Source: Frateuria flava | GTDB lineage: Bacteria > Pseudomonadota > Gammaproteobacteria > Xanthomonadales > Rhodanobacteraceae | NCBI RefSeq assembly: GCF_017837635.1 | Contig: NZ_JAGJRS010000021.1 | Location: 124,001 to 188,000, forward strand | DNA: 64,000 nucleotides | Direction of reading: 5' to 3' | Notes under the pieces: model-generated | The model's input: the letters and a program-made list of their open reading frames with translations, nothing else | The model's database searches: none | What the model was told of the DNA's origin: nothing | Translations under genes and position numbers: made by a program | Part shown: piece after piece, positions 3,937 through 51,764 of the stretch | Numbering within the stretch: the stretch's first letter is position 1 | Layout of the letters: each line of letters begins with the position of its first letter

Positions 3937-4679
3937 CGGCGCACCTCCGTCGGCAGGCGCGCCAGGTCCTGCGGCGTCAGCCGGTCGCGCGGGGCGTGCT
4001 GGGAGAGCTGCAGCGCACGGATGTAGGCCACGATGGCCCAGCGGTCGTGTGGGCTGATGCGGTCGGCGTACGGGTACATCACGCCGTAGCCGTCGCTGAT
4101 CACCTGGTAGAAATGGCTGTCCGGCGCGTTGCGCAGGCGGTCGGTGTGGTAGCTCGGCGGTGCCGGGAAGCCGCGCCGGGCGATCATGCCGTCGCCGTTG
4201 CCAGCGCGGCCGTGGCAGGGCGCGCAGTAGATGTCGAAGCGCTGCCGCCCACGCTGCAGCAGCGCCATGGTCACCGGCAGCGGATTGGCATAGCGGCGCT
4301 CGCCGACGTCGGCCTGGGCCAGGCTTCGACCCTGCGCATCCAGCGGCAACGCCGGGCCGGGATCGGGTGGCAACGTCATGTGTCCGCGGCGGCCGCTGGC
4401 CGTGTCGGCTGCCGCGCCCTGCGCCATCGGCACGCTGCCCGGTGGCGGCGTGCGCGCGCTGTTGCCGTCGGCGAACAGCGGGCTGGGCTCGAGCGGCTTG
4501 TACTTGGGCTGGGAGTACATGTCGTGCATGGCCTGCTCGCAGCCGGTGAGCGCGAACAGCGCCGCCAGCATGAACACGTACCTTGCAGGTGCTAACCCTG
4601 TGCGCGACCGCCATCGCTCCGGCGCGGTCCCCGGTCGCGCACAGGGTGCGCTCCTACAGAGGAAGGCCGGGCGCTTCAT
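3933..4679 (-). CDS. actE: Alternative complex III monohaem cytochrome c lipoprotein ActE, N-terminus carrying a REP
   Basis: This periplasmic membrane-anchored cytochrome c is expected to relay electrons from ActA toward the oxidase. A CAPCH haem motif, a later Met-containing stretch GVMYPYADRISPHDRW and a lipobox LFALTGC are visible. The ATG at 4679 overlaps the actD stop (ATGA), giving 248 residues. About residues 8-30 are translated from a REP palindrome (4584-4658), placing the lipobox Cys near residue 47 instead of the usual 18-25. An internal ATG at 4571 begins MLAALFALTGC but lacks the basic n-region normal for lipoproteins. The true start needs experiment; the family call is firm. 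Confidence 0.9.
   Translation of the reverse strand: MKRPAFLCRSAPCARPGTAPERWRSRTGLAPARYVFMLAALFALTGCEQAMHDMYSQPKYKPLEPSPLFADGNSARTPPPGSVPMAQGAAADTASGRRGHMTLPPDPGPALPLDAQGRSLAQADVGERRYANPLPVTMALLQRGRQRFDIYCAPCHGRAGNGDGMIARRGFPAPPSYHTDRLRNAPDSHFYQVISDGYGVMYPYADRISPHDRWAIVAYIRALQLSQHAPRDRLTPQDLARLPTEVRR
4584..4658. repeat. REPIN, one arm degenerate
   Basis: Right arm 4632-4658 matches the repeat at 2459-2486. The left arm 4584-4610 has several substitutions but keeps ACCCTGTGCGCGACCG. It lies in frame between the overlapping start of actE and its lipobox, and reads CRSAPCARP in the same frame as the copy in sco. Confidence 0.85.
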
Positions 4680-5212
4680 GGCCCCACCCGGTCGATCGCC
4701 AGTGGCGCCAGCCGCGCGAGGTCGTCGTGGGCCAGCGCCGGGTCGAAGCAGGGATCGTCGGCGCGCAGCCAGACGAAGAAGCCGTCGCGGCTGGCCGCCT
4801 CGAAGCACGGCACGTCGAACAGCGGATGGTGCAGCCGGGGCAGGCCGTTGGCGAAGAACATGCCGACGATGCCGAACACGGCGGCGAACAGGATCGTCAT
4901 CTCCAGCGCCGCCGGGATGAACGCCGGCCAGCTCGCGTTTGGCCGACCGCCGACGTTGATCGGATAGTCGATCACCGAGGCGTACCACTCCAGCAACAGC
5001 GTGCCGAAGCCGCCGGCCAGGCCGCCCAGCAACACCAGCAGCGGGATGCGGTTGCGCATCGGCCCCAGCGCCTGGGCCAGGCCCTCGACCGGATAGGGCG
5101 TATAGGCTTCCAGTTGCGTGTAGCCGCGCCCGCGCAGCTCGCGCACCGCCATCAGCAGCGCCCCCGCATCCTCGAAGCGGGCCAGCCAGCCCTGCTCGTG
5201 CAACCGGTTCAT
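4676..5212 (-). CDS. actD: Alternative complex III subunit ActD (DUF3341)
   Basis: A 178-residue protein has an N-terminal soluble ferredoxin-like region (MNRLHEQGWLARFEDAGAL, GYTQLEAYTPYPVEGL) and two transmembrane helices (about 55-75 and 95-118). This is the layout of the DUF3341/ActD family. ActD is a structural subunit without cofactors. It starts at 5212 within an ATGA overlap with actC, and its own stop overlaps actE. The tyrosine-proline motif YTPYPV and the helix pair make the call secure. Confidence 0.92.
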   Translation of the reverse strand: MNRLHEQGWLARFEDAGALLMAVRELRGRGYTQLEAYTPYPVEGLAQALGPMRNRIPLLVLLGGLAGGFGTLLLEWYASVIDYPINVGGRPNASWPAFIPAALEMTILFAAVFGIVGMFFANGLPRLHHPLFDVPCFEAASRDGFFVWLRADDPCFDPALAHDDLARLAPLAIDRVGP

Positions 5213-6570
5213 GCGCCCTCCCTTTCGAGCCGTGCGCGCAATTTGCGCAGCTCGAACATCGGCAGCAGCGGCAGCAGCCGCACGAACAGCAGGAACAGCA
5301 GGAAGAACAGCCCGATCGACCCGGCCAGGAAGGCGATGTCCCAGACCGTCGGATAGAACATGCCCCAGCTCGAGGGCAGGAAATCGTGGTACAGGCTGCT
5401 GATGATCAGCTCGAAGCGCTCGAACCACATGCCGACCAGTACCAGCAGCGCGATCACGAACAGCGCCGCGTGGCTCCTGCGCACGCGCTCGAACCAGATC
5501 GCCTGGATCGCCACCACGTTGCAGCCGATGATCGTCCAGTACACCCAGGCGTAGGCGCCGGTCAGCTCCTGCATGGCGTGTGCGATCTCGTAGCGGTCGC
5601 CGCTGTAGAAGGCGTTGAACAGTTCCGAGGCGTAGCTGTAGTCGACGAACAGGCCGGCGGCGAGCATCAGCTTGGCCAGGTTGGCGATGTGCCGCTCGGT
5701 GATGAAGTCGCCCAGCCCGAAGAAGCGCCGCAACGGGATGCCCAGCACCAGCACCATGCCAAAGCCGGAGAACAGCGCGCCGGCGACGAAGAACGGCGGG
5801 AAGATGGTCGAGTGCCAGCCCGGCAGCAGGCCCTCGGAGAAATCCAGCGCCACCATCGAGTGCACCGAGAACACCAGCGGCACGGCCATCGCCGCAAGCA
5901 GCAGGTTGAGCGTCTCGAAGCGCTGCCAGTGCCGCGCCTCGCCGCGCCAGCCGGCGGCGAGCAGGCCGTAGAACACCTGCTTGCCACGGGTGGCGGCGCG
6001 GTCGCGCAGGGTGGCCAGGTCGGGGATCAGGCCGACGTAGAAGTACAGCACCGAGACGATCAGGTAGGCGACGATGGCCGAGAAGTCCCAGAACAGCGAG
6101 CTGCGCCACTGCGGCCACACGCCCATGCGATCCGGATAGGGCGCCAGCCAGTAGAAGAACCACGGCCGGCCCAGGTGCAGGATCGGGAAAATGCCCGAGA
6201 CCGAGACGGCGAACACGGTCATCGCCTCGGCGTAGCGGTTGAGCGCGTTGCGCCAGCCCTGCCGCGCCAGGTACAGGCCGCCGGAAATGAAGGTGCCGGC
6301 CATGCCGATGGCGATCCACCAGACGTAGTCCGCGATGGCGAAGGCCCACGCCACCGGGATGTCCAGGCCCCAGATGCCCACGCCCTTGGCCAGCAGCCAC
6401 ACGATGCCGGCGCCCAGCCAGGCGGTGAGCACGAAGGAGAGCGCGAAGGCGACCATCCACAGGCGACCGGTGGGTCGCTCGAGCACGATGGCGCTCACCT
6501 TGTCGGTAATCGAGGCGTCGGTTTCGCGTAGGGCCAGCAGCCGGGCGTTCATGTCGCGGTGCCCATGCAT
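5209..6570 (-). CDS. actC: Alternative complex III quinol-site membrane subunit ActC (NrfD/PsrC family)
   Basis: The 453-residue polytopic protein has about ten transmembrane helices and is the NrfD-like subunit that forms a quinol site in alternative complex III. Typical segments are AIADYVWWIAIGMAGTFISG, FPILHLGRPWFFYWLAPYP, FSVHSMVALDFSEGLLPGWH and FERFELIISSLYHDFLPSSW. The start at 6570 has a purine-rich GCGGGAG upstream; Met7 (6552) is an alternative. The stop overlaps actD. It is separated from actB by a 660-base repeat array, unlike the tight junctions that follow. Confidence 0.95.
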   Translation of the reverse strand: MHGHRDMNARLLALRETDASITDKVSAIVLERPTGRLWMVAFALSFVLTAWLGAGIVWLLAKGVGIWGLDIPVAWAFAIADYVWWIAIGMAGTFISGGLYLARQGWRNALNRYAEAMTVFAVSVSGIFPILHLGRPWFFYWLAPYPDRMGVWPQWRSSLFWDFSAIVAYLIVSVLYFYVGLIPDLATLRDRAATRGKQVFYGLLAAGWRGEARHWQRFETLNLLLAAMAVPLVFSVHSMVALDFSEGLLPGWHSTIFPPFFVAGALFSGFGMVLVLGIPLRRFFGLGDFITERHIANLAKLMLAAGLFVDYSYASELFNAFYSGDRYEIAHAMQELTGAYAWVYWTIIGCNVVAIQAIWFERVRRSHAALFVIALLVLVGMWFERFELIISSLYHDFLPSSWGMFYPTVWDIAFLAGSIGLFFLLFLLFVRLLPLLPMFELRKLRARLEREGA

Positions 6571-6574
6571 GCCA

Positions 6575-7220
6575 CTCCCGCTTCCTCTCCTGTGCGGGGA
6601 GAGGGGGCGGGTTTGCGGCAGGTGCGGGACAGGGGCGCGATGGATAGCGCGAGAGCATGCGATGGTCTCGCCCCCCCATCCGCCAATACGGCTCCCTCTC
6701 CCCTGCGGGGAGCGGGCTGGGGTGAGGGGTCATGGCCTGCGGTGAGGCCTGGCCGTAGCCGGGTGCCTGGCAAAAAGCCACGCGGAGGATGGAAATTCCG
6801 GGCGAGCCCCGGCCCCTCACCCCAACCCTCTCCCCGCAGGGGAGAGGGAGCGGGTCTGCGGCGGGTGCGGGACAGCAGCGCGGTGGATAGGGCGAGAACA
6901 TGCGATGGCCCCGACCACCGATCCGCCAATACGGCTCCCTCTCCCCTGCGGGGAGAGGGAGCGGGTCTGCGGCAAGTGCGAGACAGGGGCGCGGTGGATA
7001 GGGCGAGGGCATGCGATGGCCTCGCCCTCCCATCCGCCGATACGGCCCCCTCTCCCCTCCGGGGAGAGGGCTGGGGTGAGGGGTCAAGGCTTGCGGGGAC
7101 GCTTGGCCGCAGCCGGGCGCCTGGCGAAAGGCCACGCGGTAGATGGAAGTTCGGGGCGAGCCCCGGCCCCTCACCCCAACCCTCTCCCCGGAGGGGAGAG
7201 GGAGCCTGATCATGGCAAGC
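6575..7220. repeat. Composite palindromic repeat array between actB and actC (A-B-A-A-B units)
   Basis: About 640 bases consist of two repeated unit types bounded by CTCCCTCTCCCC/GGGGAGAGGGAG hairpins. Unit A (near 6596-6710, 6843-6955, 6955-7065) contains GATAGGGCGAG and CATGCGATGG. Unit B (near 6710-6840 and 7067-7200) contains TGAGGGGTCA, GGCGAAAGGCCACGCGG-like and GGGCGAGCCCCGG segments. Open frames across it ([11 protein letters not shown] and similar) are repeat translations, not genes. The array interrupts an otherwise tightly packed operon. Confidence 0.85.
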
Positions 7221-7234
7221 ATGAGGGAACCCGC

Positions 7235-10156
<2,922 letters not shown>

Positions 10157-10935: not shown

Positions 10936-11345
10936 TCGTTCGCTTCCTCTCCCCCAGGTTTTCCAAAAGATGGGGGAGAGGATTGAGGTGAGGGGTCGCT
11001 CTTGCGGGGAACCCCAGAAGGAAGCCTCCGCGCGAGCCCCGACCCCTCACCCCGGCCCTCTCCCCGGAGGGGAGAGGGAGCAGAGCGATCGACCATCCCC
11101 GCGAACCCCGGCCCCTCACCCCAGCCCTCTCCCCGGAGGGGAGAGGGAGCAGAGCGATCGACCTTCCCCGCGAGCCCCGGCCCCTCACCCCAGCCCTCTC
11201 CCCGGAGGGGAGAGGGAGCAGAGCGATCGACCTTGCCGCGCGCACCCCGGCCCCTCACCCCAACCCTCTCCCCGGAGGGGAGAGGGAGCAGAGCGATCGA
11301 CCTTGCCGCGCGCACCGGCCCCTCACCCCGGCCCTCTCCCCGGCG
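10936..11345. repeat. Tandem ~69-base palindromic repeats
   Basis: Five copies of a CCTCACCCC(A/G)(G/A)CCCTCTCCCC-GGAGGGGAGAGGGAG palindrome occur, the intervening CAGAGCGATCGACC marker starting at 11081, 11150, 11219 and 11289 (periods 69, 69, 70). Divergent half-units flank it (10936-11040 and 11320-11345). The family is the same as in the array at 6575-7220 and in lhr. Nothing else is seen between actA and the cytochrome gene; the actA promoter should be near 10840-10930. Confidence 0.9.
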
Positions 11346-24650: not shown

Positions 24651-27600
24651 ATGCCGCTCGAACACTTCCATCCCGCCGTCGCGCGCTGGTTCCAGCGCAG
24701 CTTCCCGGCGCCCACCGCGGCGCAGGCGGGGGCGTGGCCGAACATCCACGCCGGCCGCCACACCCTGGTCGCCGCGCCGACGGGCTCGGGCAAGACGCTG
24801 ACCGCCTTCCTCGCCGCCATCGACGCGCTGGTGCGCGAGGGACTGGCCCATGGCGGCGCCTTGCCGGACGAGACACGGGTGGTCTACGTCTCGCCGCTGA
24901 AGGCGCTGTCCAACGACATCCACATCAACCTCGAAGCGCCGCTGGAAGGCATCCGCGCCGAACTCGCCGCCGAAGGCCTGCCGGACGTGGCGATCCGCAC
25001 CGCCGTGCGCACCGGCGACACGCCGCAGGCCGAGCGCGCGCTGATGCGCAAGGTGAGCCCGCACATCCTGGTGACCACGCCCGAGTCGCTGTACGTGCTG
25101 CTGGGCTCGGCGTCCGGGCGCGAGATGCTGAAAAGCACGCGCGCGGTGATCGTGGACGAGATCCACGCACTGGCCAATTCCAAGCGCGGCACGCACCTGG
25201 CGCTGTCGCTCGAGCGGCTGGAGTCGCTGTGCCAGCGGCCGCTGCAGCGGATCGGCTTGTCGGCGACGCAGAAGCCGATCGAAGAGGTGGCGCGGTTTCT
25301 GGTTGGAGCCCGGGACCAGGCTCCCTCTCCCCTTCGGGGAGAGGGCTGGGGTGAGGGGCGGGGCTTGCCTCAGCCCAGCCAAGAGCTCGCTCCTGCAACC
25401 TTCCCCGCGAGCCCCGGCCCCTCATCCGGCCCTTCGGGCCACCTTCTCCCCGGAGGGGAGAAGGAACTGGCGAGCTGCGCGATTGTTGATGTCGGCCACG
25501 CCCGCCCCCGCGACCTCGCCATCGAAGTGCCGCCGGTCCCGCTCGAAGCGGTGATGTCCAACGACGCCTGGGAAACGGTCTACGACCGCCTCGCCCAGCT
25601 CGCCCGCGACCACCGCACCACGCTGGTCTTCGTCAACACCCGCCGCATGGCCGAGCGCGCCGCGCGCCACCTGGCCGAGCGGCTGGGCAAGCGGGCGGTC
25701 GCCGCGCACCACGGCAGCCTGGCCAAGGAGCTGCGGCTCGACGCGGAGCAGCGCCTCAAGCGCGGCGAACTGAAGCTGCTCGTCGCGACCGCCTCGCTGG
25801 AGCTGGGCATCGACATCGGCGATGTCGACCTGGTCTGCCAGCTTGCCTCGCCACGTTCGATCGCCGCCTTCCTGCAGCGCGCCGGCCGCTCCGGCCACGC
25901 GGTCAACGGCACGCCCAAGGCGCGCCTGTTCCCGACCAGCCGCGACGACCTGTTCGAGTGCGCCGCCTTGCTCGACTGCGTGCGACGGGGCGAACTCGAT
26001 GCGCTGGTGCAACCGGTGCAGCCGCTGGACGTGCTGGCGCAGCAGATCGTCGCCGAGGTCGCATCGCAGGAGTGGCAAGAGGACGCGCTCTACGCGCTGG
26101 TGCGCGGCGCGCATCCCTACCGCGAGCTGCCGCGCGAGCAGTTCGACGCCATCGTGCGCATGCTCGCCGAGGGCTTCAGCACCCGCCGCGGCGCGCGCGC
26201 GGCCTATATCCATCGCGACGCCGTGCATCGCCAGTTGCGCGCGCGCCGCAACGCGCGGCTGACCGCGGTGACCTCCGGCGGCACCATCCCGGACACCGCC
26301 GACTACCGCGTCGTGCTGGAGCCCCAAAACACCGTCATCGGCTCGCTCAACGAGGATTTCGCGATCGAAAGCCTCGCCGGCGACGTGTTCCAGCTGGGCA
26401 ACACCAGCTACCGCATCCTGCGCGTGGAGCGCGATCGCGTGCGCGTCGAGGACGCCCACGGCGCGCCGCCGAGCCTGCCGTTCTGGCTGGGCGAGGCGCC
26501 CGGGCGCAGCGATGAGCTGTCCGTTGGCGTGGCGCGCCTGCGCGAGGAGATCGGCGCCCAGCTCGATGCCGGCGGCGTGACCGCGGCGGTGGCGTGGCTG
26601 CGCGAGGTGCTGTCGATGAGCGAGGCGGCGGCGCAACAGCTGGCCGATTACCTGCACCGTGCCAAGGTCGCGCTCGGCGTTCTGCCGACCCAGCACACGA
26701 TCGTCTTCGAGCGCTTCTTCGACGAATCCGGCGGCACCCAGCTGGTGATTCACACGCCCTTCGGCAGCCGCATCAACCGTGCCTGGGGCCTGGCCCTGCG
26801 CAAGCGCTTCTGCCGCCAGTTCAACTTCGAGCTGCAGGCGGCGGCGACCGAGGACGCGATCGTGCTGTCGCTCTCGACCAGCCACAGCTTTCCGCTGGAA
26901 GAGGTCGCGCGCTACCTGCATTCGAACTCTGCCGAGCACGTGCTGGTGCAGGCGTTGCTGGACGCGCCGCTGTTCCCCGCGCGCTGGCGCTGGAACGCGG
27001 TTACCGCGCTGGCGCTGCCGCGCTATACCGGGGGCAAGAAGACGCCGCCGCAGATCCAGCGCATGAAGAGCGAGGACCTGCTCGCCACCGTGTTCCCCGA
27101 CCAGGTCGCCTGCCTGGAGAACATCGTCGGCGAGCGGCAGATCCCCGACCATCCGCTGGTCAACCAGACGCTGCACGATTGCCTGCGCGAGGCGATGGAC
27201 GTCGACGGCCTGTTGCGCATCCTGCGCGGCTTCGAGACGGGCGCGATCACGGTGGTCGCGCGCGACCTCACCGGCCCCAGTCCGCTCGCCTCCGAAGTAC
27301 TCTCCGCCGCGCCCTACGCCTACCTCGACGACGCGCCACTGGAAGAACGCCGCACCCAGGCGGTGCAGAGCCGGCGCTGGAACGCCGAGGACGCCGACGA
27401 CCTCGGCCGGCTCGATCCGGAGGCGATCGCCGCGGTGCGCGAGGAGGCCTGGCCGCAGGTGCGCAGCGGTGACGAGATGCACGAGGCGCTGACGTTGCTG
27501 GGGTTTGTCACCGCTGATGAGGTGCACGCCAACACCGGCTGGCAGGAGCGTCTGGAGGCGCTCGCCAGGCATCACCGCGCCACGTGTCTCAACCTGGCCG

Positions 27601-29414
27601 GAAACCAGGCTCTCTCTCCCCCCCTGGGAGAGGGTTGGGGTGAGGGGTCGAGCTTGCGGGGAGCCTCCCAGGAACGAACTGCAAGCGACTTCCCCGCGAG
27701 CCCCGCCCCCTCATCCGACCCCTGCGGGGCCACCTTCTCCCCCGGCTCTCATCAAATGCGGGGGAGAAGGACCAGGCGCGTGTGGGTCACGGCCGAGGTA
27801 TTGCCGCTGTGGCAGACGATCCATGCGGACGCCACGCTGCACCCGCCCATCAGCACCCCACCCGACTACGCCGCGCAGGCCTGGACCCGCGACGAGGCGC
27901 TGATCGAACTGGTCCGCCGCCGCCTCGGCGGCCTGGGTCCCACCACGCCCGCCGCACTGGCCGCGTCGCTCGCGGTCGATGCGGCGGACGTCGAACCCGC
28001 CCTGCTGCGCCTGCAGTCCGAGGGCTACGTCATGCAGGGCCGCTTCACCCCCGACGCGGCTGGCATCGAGTGGTGCGAACGCCACCTGCTCGCGCGCATC
28101 CATCGCTACACCATCGGTCGGCTGCGCCGCGAGATCGAACCGGTCAGCCGGCGGGACCTGATCCGCTTCCTGGCCGATTGGCAGCACCTGACGCCGGACA
28201 CGCGACTGGAAGGTCCCGACGGCCTGATCGCCACGTTGCACCAGCTCGAAGGCTTCGAGGCGGCCGCCGGCGCCTGGGAAACCGAACTGCTGCCCTCGCG
28301 CGTGGGCGACTACACCAGCCGCTGGCTGGACGAACTGTGCCGCGCGGGCCGCTTCGGCTGGAACCGCCTGCGCGCCGGCGGCGGCAGCGCCGGCCCGGTG
28401 CGGGCCACGCCCATCGTGCTGCTGCCACGCCGGCAAATGGCCATCTGGACGTCCATCGCCTCGGGTGAGCAGCCGCAGGAGTCCTTGCTTTCCTCGCGCG
28501 CGCAGGCCGTGGCCGATGCCCTGGCCAGCCACGGCGCACTGTTCTTCGATGAACTGCTCGATGCCACCCGCTTGCTGCGTACCGAGCTGGAGAATGCGCT
28601 CGGCGAACTGGTCGCCGCCGGCCGCGTCACCGCCGACAGCTTTGCCGGCCTGCGTGCGCTTCTGCTGCCCGCCGCCAAGCGAGACTCGCGCCCGCACCGT
28701 CGCGCACGGCGGCATGCGTTGAGCGAGATCGAGGATGCCGGGCGCTGGTCGCTGGCACGCACGGTCCTTCTCCCCGCCGGGGAGAAGGTGGCCCCGAAGG
28801 GGTCGGATGAGGGGTCGGGGCTCGCGGGGAGCGCCGTTGAGAACTCACCGCAAGGCCGGCCCCTCACCTCAATCCTCTCCCCGGTGGGGAGAGGAGGCAA
28901 AGGAGGCGCTTCGCGCCAGCTTGATTCCGATGAAGCAGAACACGTTGCACGTGTCCTGCTTCGCCGCTACGGCGTGGTCTTCTGGAAATTGCTCGAGCGC
29001 GAGGCTCCGTGGCTGCCCTCCTGGCGCGAGCTGCTGCGCGTCTACCATCGCCTGGAAGCGCGCGGCGAAATCCGTGGCGGGCGTTTCGTCGAGGGCCTGG
29101 TCGGCGAGCAGTTCGCGCTGCCGGAGGCGATCGGCGCGCTGCGCGGCGTGCGCCAGCGCGAGGCCACGCAGCAGCTGGTCTGCGTCAGCGGCAGCGATCC
29201 GCTCAACCTGGTCGGCACGGTGCTCGCCGGCGACAAGCTGCCCGCGCTGGCCGGCACCCGCGTGCTGTACGAGGACGGCGTGCCCGTAGCCGCACTGGTG
29301 GCCAACAAACCGCAGTTCCTGCTCGAAGCCGACGGCGCCACCCAGCAGCGCTGGCGCAACGCGTTGCTGCGGCGGCCGGGCAGCGAGGCGCACGGGATCG
29401 GCCTGGCGGTGTGA
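24651..29414 (+). CDS. lhr: Large DEAD/DEAH helicase Lhr with three in-frame palindrome insertions
   Basis: The 1587-residue ATP-dependent DNA repair helicase has a two-RecA motor: Walker A APTGSGKT near 42-49, D169EIH, GLSATQ, and motif VI in [12 protein letters not shown]. These are followed by the Lhr-specific winged-helix and C-terminal domains. Three segments rich in Gly/Pro/Ser are translated from C-rich palindromic repeats: about residues 222-275 (25316-25472), 985-1042 (27605-27775) and 1371-1425 (28764-28925). They fall between conserved blocks and keep the frame, so the protein is about 150 residues longer than the same protein would be without them. The gene is monocistronic. No frameshift or stop is seen, so it is probably functional. 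Confidence 0.93.
25316..25472. repeat. Palindromic element in frame inside lhr, copy 1
   Basis: A CTCCCTCTCCCC-TTCGGGGAGAGGG hairpin at the left and ACCTTCTCCCC-GGAGGGGAGAAGG at the right flank a region with GTGAGGGGCGGGGC and GCCCCGGCCCCTCATCC. The frame reads [13 protein letters not shown]... and ...HLLPGGEKE. It sits just after the first RecA domain. Confidence 0.88.
27605..27775. repeat. Palindromic element in frame inside lhr, copy 2
   Basis: The left hairpin is CTCTCTCCCCCCCTGGGAGAGGG and the right part ACCTTCTCCCCCGGCTCTCATCAAATGCGGGGGAGAAGG. The left end is read in the same frame as copy 1 (LGEGWGEG), the right end in another frame. Confidence 0.85.
28764..28925. repeat. Palindromic element in frame inside lhr, copy 3
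   Basis: It begins TCCTTCTCCCCGCCGGGGAGAAGG and ends CCTCTCCCCGGTGGGGAGAGG, the reverse order of hairpin types relative to copies 1 and 2. The translation [17 protein letters not shown]...[11 protein letters not shown] separates two conserved Lhr C-terminal blocks. Confidence 0.85.
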
Positions 29415-51347: not shown

Positions 51348-51419
51348 CCTTTTGTTAGCACTTTTCGGCAATGACCATTGCGGTTGGGGAGCCTTGGCTT
51401 TCCGCGTTAACATTCCGCC

Positions 51420-51618
51420 CGTTTTGGGTGTCCCTTGGGTCATGCCACGGGATGAAACGGGAAGCCGGTGCGTTGTGCAATCCACAACAAGGCCGGCGCT
51501 GCCCCCGCAACGGTAAGCGAGTCGAACGGACGGCCCACGCCACTGTGCTTGAAGCATGGGAAGGCGCCGCCCGGCAGGCCTCTGGCCTGCGCCCGCGAGC
51601 CCGGAGACCGGCCCGAAG
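51420..51618 (+). ncRNA. Cobalamin (B12) riboswitch
   Basis: The conserved core of the AdoCbl aptamer is visible in order: CGGGAAGCCGGTG (51458-51470), the B12 box GCTGCCCCCGCAACGGTAA (51498-51516), CGCCACTG...GGGAAGGCG, and the closing CCCGGAGACCGGCC at 51600-51614. It precedes btuB by about 150 bases and is expected to lower btuB expression when cobalamin is present. Exact ends are approximate. Confidence 0.93.
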
Positions 51619-51764
51619 CGTTGCCTGGTGGACCTGCGGTGGGCGGGCCGGACCTCGTGCGTGGCCCTGTGCCTGCCCGTCGTTCCTCCCCCTGCCGCCG
51701 GCCGACCAGCTCATCCACGCTTGAGGCCGTGCGTGGGCGCGCGGCCAAGGACACACACCACACC

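Follow-up and report, generated by a model that had tools for sequence, protein, structure and literature searches.

Why should an array of large palindromes lie between two subunit genes of one complex, in an operon whose later junctions overlap? The question is posed by the alternative complex III (act) operon in the window, the 64,000-nt stretch of DNA analyzed here, which belongs to a Frateuria genome of 3.68 Mb in 40 contigs (G000) and encodes an ActC 95% identical to that of Frateuria terrea. The operon assignment is supported by Pfam domains, with NrfD in actC, Fe-S domains in actB and multihaem cytochrome domains in actA, alongside ActD and COX2. The genes that flank the array are the following:

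7235..10156, minus strand: actB, Fe-S subunit (Pfam Fer4 domains; homologues)
5209..6552, minus strand: actC, NrfD-like (PF03916; start ATGA at 6552 aligns with relatives)

The actC start is probably the one at 6552 (M7). An alternative in-frame ATG at 6570 has GGGAG ahead of it, which makes independent initiation of actC possible.

At the other junctions of the operon, actC and actD overlap by 4 nt (-4 nt), and the actD-actE and actE-actF junctions and the junction ahead of a sco-like gene each carry ATGA at the upstream stop. Spacings are -4 nt at 2857/2860 and at 1626/1629 and -14 nt at 697/710, and the actA-actB gap in the window is 31 nt. A preliminary description of this DNA had stated that all junctions after actC overlap, and this holds, in two cases (actD-actE and the sco-like gene) by way of in-frame inserts. 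These inserts, at 4578-4679 (actD-actE) and 2412-2500 (ahead of the sco-like gene), are a GTAG-like palindromic repeat, GTAGGAGCGCACCCTGTGCGCGAC, distinct from the array family; in both cases the upstream stop retains its ATGA, and the inserted sequence extends the N-terminus of the next gene in frame.

The palindrome array between actB and actC

A lax palindrome scan of the actB/actC spacer finds six G/C-rich palindromes within 6571-7205. Direct repeats pair a 281-nt segment, 6571-6851, with 6925-7205 (88%), and a 140-nt segment at 6584 with further copies at 6827 (84%) and 6938 (89%); the resulting unit order is A-B-A-A-B. Inverted arms reach up to 56 nt, and TRF independently reports a 111-nt period at 6826-7070. 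Direct repeats, inverted arms and TRF thus confirm the A-B-A-A-B palindrome array that the preliminary description had placed between the two genes. Its parts are:

6571..7205, unstranded: A-B-A-A-B array of G/C-rich palindromes (direct repeats, TRF, lax palindrome scan)
6584..6606 (approximate limits), unstranded: degenerate palindrome at the actC end of the array (sequence reading, repeats)
6692..6729, plus strand: full TM repeat with third strand GGGGTGAGGGG (pattern scan; consensus of Holder 2015)
6813..6850, minus strand: TM repeat, inverted partner (pattern scan)
6937..6959, unstranded: palindrome without third strand, between two adjacent A spacers (sequence reading, repeats)
7046..7083, plus strand: TM repeat (pattern scan)
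7167..7204, minus strand: TM repeat, inverted partner (pattern scan)

TM refers to the G/C-rich intrastrand triplex motif repeats described by Holder et al. (2015, NAR; PMC4666352) as TM or TM_ECO and formerly called PIT. The TM architecture CCCTCTCCCC-NNN-GGGGAGAGGG-NN-GGGGTGAGGGG occurs in four complete copies in the array (6692, 6813, 7046 and 7167), arranged as two inverted pairs, and two further lax TM matches lack the third strand. Judged by its sequence, the array consists of clustered TM-type repeats, members of a known family of dispersed palindromes. It resembles the E. coli TM, as described in that paper, in combining a hairpin with a third-strand sequence (E. coli table entry CCCTCGCCCCTCCGGGGAGAGGGCCGGGGTGAGGGG), in its many copies and inverted pairs, and in occupying variable loci. 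It differs in that the E. coli motif is reported there as always intergenic, whereas Frateuria copies also lie in genes and in the bridging open reading frame (ORF) described below, and form longer arrays.

The family is abundant in G000, with 156 copies of the exact palindrome (third strand not required) against 0 for a control pattern. A pattern one base shorter per arm than that used for G000 gives 57 copies in G031, 68 in G060, 21 in G046, 16 in G005 and 1 in G083. Arrays of like size occur elsewhere in G000 (L064 4378-5052 and L067 9016-9685); the act array is thus not special in kind. At gathering thresholds, no Rfam family matches the array. The sole Rfam match in the window, at 51409-51630, is a cobalamin riboswitch (107 bits).

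A second kind of short palindrome offers a partial parallel. GTAG/CGTC REPs, which carry a tag at one palindrome end and often lie between unidirectional genes in the account of PMC3733652, resemble the array in its short palindromes of alternating orientation; reading the array sequence revealed no GTAG/CGTC tag on its palindromes. We also considered a RAYT as mobilizer and rejected it: the 1.5-kb flanks of the three Y1_Tnp loci in the genome contain no flanking TM copy, only single half-motif matches (L001 2249, which is the same site as L002 3275, and L003 113). The Y1 transposase genes are two neighbors on contig C10 (L001, L002) and a RAYT-like gene on C19 (L003), which adjoins a different palindrome, GTGGGCTGAAGCCCACCCTACG.

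The frame across the array and its counterparts in relatives

On the coding strand of the operon, a reading frame is open through the whole array, from the actB stop to the actC start:

6549..7238, minus strand: bridge ORF, 229 codons (ATG on the actB stop, ATGA 7238-7235; TGA on the actC start, ATGA 6552-6549)

The ATG that overlaps the actB stop corresponds to the position at which actC starts in insert-free relatives and is retained in G000, and the ATGA at the far end of the bridge is where the ActC of relatives starts. ATGA overlap, a hallmark of termination-reinitiation, is thus present in insert-free relatives and at both bridge ends. The array is open in two of its three frames, so that openness alone is weak evidence and the argument rests on phase and end-point.

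ActB and actC overlap directly at ATGA in a Frateuria metagenome-assembled genome (MAG; L021), in Fulvimonas (L040) and in other family members. In four other Frateuria the two genes lie 91-169 nt apart, with at most one recognizable palindrome in each spacer, and among the compared Frateuria and Fulvimonas the six-palindrome array is found in G000 alone. By comparison of these spacers, which the preliminary description had proposed as a check and which shows array sizes to be unequal, the array has expanded specifically in this lineage, at a junction that was already open in relatives; the suggestion in that description of a recent expansion is supported. A MITE inserted in an operon without disturbing it is reportedly the subject of the Chunjie MITE paper.

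Phase is preserved throughout this variation in length. The five Frateuria gaps, of 682 (G000, measured to the actC start at 6552), 169, 127, 103 and 91 nt, differ by multiples of three only, and every spacer that has ATG on the actB stop out of frame with actC (6/6) is in phase 2 and ends on ATGA. Because phase 0 here looks the same as a start of actC itself, one half each is the fair expectation. The corresponding bridges measure 229 aa in G000, 58 in F. terrea, 44 in G060, 36 in G031, 32 in G046 (91-nt gap, phase 2) and 63 in G083, which belongs to another genus and whose bridge lacks a TM palindrome. Set apart from this comparison were 11 rows from distant phyla in which the stop ATG is in frame with actC and was regarded as the start of actC itself, leaving no spacer, and another five rows without ATG on the actB stop. 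A GCATGA-like sequence is present at both ends of several act spacers, a pattern that could come from target duplication at insertion and that selection for a start would equally give. We regard a functional protein encoded by the bridge as unlikely, as the bridge ORF of G000 has no Pfam match and bridge lengths range from 32 to 229 aa.

We consider it probable that the insertion persists as a translated relay that preserves stop-start coupling between actB and actC. In the proposed scheme, an insertion common to five Frateuria would have entered where the actB stop and the actC start overlap in ATGA and expanded to six palindromes in G000, the array surviving because it could still be translated. 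A ribosome finishing actB would restart on the overlapping ATG, translate the 229 repeat codons without interruption and terminate at the TGA overlapping actC's start codon, relaying coupling over about 690 nt. What is seen directly is the position of the insertion, its lineage distribution, the open frame with ATGA at both ends, the constancy of phase across lengths and the recurrence at coupled gene pairs described below. According to Huber (2023), a spacing of 20-38 nt nearly abolishes reinitiation; on that account a plain spacer of more than 600 nt would cost the coupling that a relay would keep. It is disputed whether a ribosome can traverse a long intergenic gap and restart, and both views are cited in the same paper. 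Insertions that lengthen a coupled junction yet keep a readable relay would amount to an in vivo experiment on long-gap restart, visible in genomes.

A precedent for the arrangement comes from the mycobacterial interspersed repetitive units (MIRU). Brown & Wade (2025; PMC12548453), citing Supply (1997), describe MIRU as a mobile repeat that enters at a start codon and carries an ORF coupled to the next gene at -4 nt. The likeness, an analogy of arrangement only, is that a repeat ORF meets the downstream gene at -4 nt (ATGA). Clade and repeat differ from those of MIRU, and Frateuria has a 690-nt, multi-element array whose phase is kept through length change.

Copies inside genes and the question of termination

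The same repeat family is found in frame within conserved proteins, among them the product of a helicase gene of the window:

24651..29414, plus strand: Lhr-type helicase, three TM-family arrays in frame (Pfam; comparison with relatives)

The Lhr inserts occupy 25322-25463, about 27611-27761 and 28767-28897; at two of these three sites, six relatives differ in insert length. HrpA and a multicopper oxidase each contain an in-frame insert of the family. PEP carboxylase (L066 2663-5581) carries a 67-residue repeat-derived insert in both G000 and G031, at a site occupied by 7-16 residues in four relatives. Conserved proteins that carry palindromic repeats in frame are described for the Rickettsia palindromic elements and for proteins decorated with REPs (PMC10969869, PMC3733652, PMC2229807), and by those descriptions Lhr, HrpA and PEP carboxylase carry their palindromes in a similar way. 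The Rickettsia and REP cases are fusions, unlike the act array, which would act as a relay between genes.

These copies bear on the alternative that the array is a terminator or attenuator, or a block of mRNA-stabilizing hairpins, that sets the ratio of actAB to actCDEF. Very strong RNA hairpins are predicted in the array (folding of 6549-7238, z = -13.85 against 20 shuffles) and it sits between subunit genes of one complex, as that alternative would have it. A scan of 6300-7500 for terminator-like sites (G+C-rich stem, then T run) nevertheless gave 0, and the in-frame copies in Lhr, HrpA, PEP carboxylase and multicopper oxidase are of necessity transcribed through; because they need both transcription and translation through the repeat, an effective terminator is disfavored. 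The act spacers of the other four Frateuria retain at most one recognizable palindrome, and the discussion in Holder et al. (2015, PMC4666352) refers to an earlier study in which the E. coli motif was without promoter or terminator activity. With the frame also open from gene to gene, the proposal of the preliminary description that the array may terminate mRNA is not supported, and we judge the whole terminator or hairpin-block account highly improbable. Given the strength of the predicted hairpins, the array might still protect or process the mRNA or alter subunit ratios. A promoter role for the array was likewise considered, and none was found in 6300-7500.

Bridged spacers at other junctions

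We surveyed array loci in four Frateuria genomes, the G000 sample comprising contigs C1-C6 and the window (except for one array location right at the beginning of C1) and the G031 loci being among those listed. The arrays listed fall in 90 codirectional, 28 convergent and 5 divergent spacers and 15 times inside called genes, some of these last being spurious N-terminal extensions (e.g., L058) made by the simple gene caller used. Among the arrays listed, strict bridges from any start codon span 7 of the 90 codirectional array spacers (L142 being doubtful) versus 10/340 array-free spacers; for spacers of 150-300 nt the counts are 6/44 with arrays versus 2/46 without, and 29 of the 37 codirectional array spacers longer than 300 nt have no open frame.

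ATGA lies on the upstream stop in six array spacers listed in the four genomes, and four of these have strict bridges: actB-actC, recB-recD, metH1-metH2 and holA-nadD. The unbridged pair consists of the 517-nt spacer between a cytochrome c gene and actA in the window and L164. Array-free spacers of at least 30 nt with ATGA are strictly bridged in 2/11 cases, and in most of the others the ATG opens a long frame. GTGA/TTGA variants occur at paaI-srkA and frr-uppS. The names recD, nadD, metH2, Lhr, HrpA-type, PEP carboxylase and multicopper oxidase are backed by Pfam; recB, holA, metH1, frr, uppS, paaI, srkA and sco are what we take the genes to be from reading their translations.

The recB-recD, metH and holA-nadD junctions, picked because one Frateuria genome was bridged there, were then compared among relatives. 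At recB-recD, 25 of 30 loci family-wide have no spacer, one row (L191) was dropped because its upstream gene end was misparsed, and the remaining four loci have spacers of 79-208 nt, each of them bridged, with ATG as the start in three and GTG in the fourth. Both metH1-metH2 spacers are bridged (2/2).

The holA-nadD comparison covers 108 loci family-wide: 69 gaps of at most 30 nt, 34 larger ones and 5 unusable rows (L246, L299 and L302, with gaps of -263, -391 and -166, and 2 loci without a HolA match). ATG lies on the holA stop in 22 of the 34 larger gaps and is absent from the other 12. In G000, a 418-nt spacer is spanned by a 144-codon frame that ends 13 nt inside nadD. The 22 ATG spacers divide into 18 in phase 2, 3 in phase 1 (L227, L250 and L291, the last of which stops after one codon) and 1 in phase 0 (L237). 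Phase 2 is in excess overall (18/22 against 1/3, p = 4e-6; 18/21 against 1/2 omitting phase 0, p = 7e-4) and outside Frateuria (13/17, p = 3e-4), and in spacers of 100 nt or more (n = 12) the start is reached by 11 bridge frames versus 8/24 other frames (p = 0.001), all of these p-values treating loci as independent and therefore being too small for loci that are related. Frame-0 ORFs end within -30 to +20 nt of the NadD start in 21/22 cases, versus 4/44 for the other two frames. Of the 12 spacers lacking ATG, only L222 and L280 (which ends at -6) have GTG bridges, and L278 and L300 stop 160-180 nt short. The pooled figure of 29/33, which covers ATG-start spacers only, is kept out of the argument. 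A TM-like palindrome is present in just 12/34 spacers (10/22 of those with ATG); bridging at holA-nadD is thus not specific to TM arrays, and the rule concerns spacers generally.

These counts weigh on the idea that the insertion is neutral, with repeats simply tolerated and the open frame a product of stop-poor, GC-rich sequence and chance phase. Such an idea fits the openness of two of the three array frames, the 83/90 codirectional array spacers listed that are not strictly bridged and the bridging of some array-free spacers (10/340). It sits poorly with the predominance of phase 2 (18/22 at holA-nadD and 6/6 at actB-actC), with holA-nadD end-points that cluster at the start codon in the bridge frame and not in the others, and with Frateuria act spacer lengths that differ solely by multiples of three. 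We find it improbable.

The near rival to the relay is protection from Rho-dependent polarity: the bridge frame may be kept so that ribosomes cover the RNA against Rho or against folding, with exact coupling secondary and actC using its own start. The GGGAG ahead of the ATG at 6570 is in keeping with this, and ribosome cover would need no particular phase of the open frame. The excess of phase-2 frames that end at the downstream start, mostly on ATGA, is more specific than ribosome cover requires, and we think this rival somewhat unlikely. Where the ATG is kept, early stops in the relay frame are found in 1/22 spacers at holA-nadD, 0/6 at act, 0/3 at recB-recD and 0/2 at metH (2/6 in the array sample from the four genomes). 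Such stops are thus uncommon, which an account based purely on avoiding misreading does not predict.

Extended to Rhodanobacteraceae, the relay reading becomes an evenly balanced proposition: inserts at ATGA junctions, of TM and other kinds, in which the upstream-stop ATG survives may be kept mainly as phase-preserving, stop-free relay ORFs of up to nearly 700 nt. If so, spacers supposed to be non-coding would be translated, and spacer phase would become an evolutionary readout of the need for local termination-reinitiation versus ribosome scanning. The genomic comparisons also suggest that arrays dismissed as intergenic or suspected of being terminators can be translated, which would bear on annotation, operon prediction and small ORFs. 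The TM family, in-frame protein repeats and the -4 nt coupling of MIRU are already known; what appears new from these sequences is a long TM-array relay with its phase kept. A literature search found no report of repeat-derived bridge ORFs in this bacterial group and no long-TM-array relay kept in phase through a between-species change in length.

Other spacers of the act operon show further variation. A second TM array, at 11027-11343 (69-bp period x 4.6; four TMs, all on the minus strand), sits in the 517-nt gap between the cytochrome c gene and actA, and this gap is not bridged. In STR12 (L020) the actA stop carries no start codon, and the actA-actB spacer there was not counted as bridged. 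The MAG (L021) has a bridge of 88 codons across its actA-actB spacer, from TGATG to ATGA.
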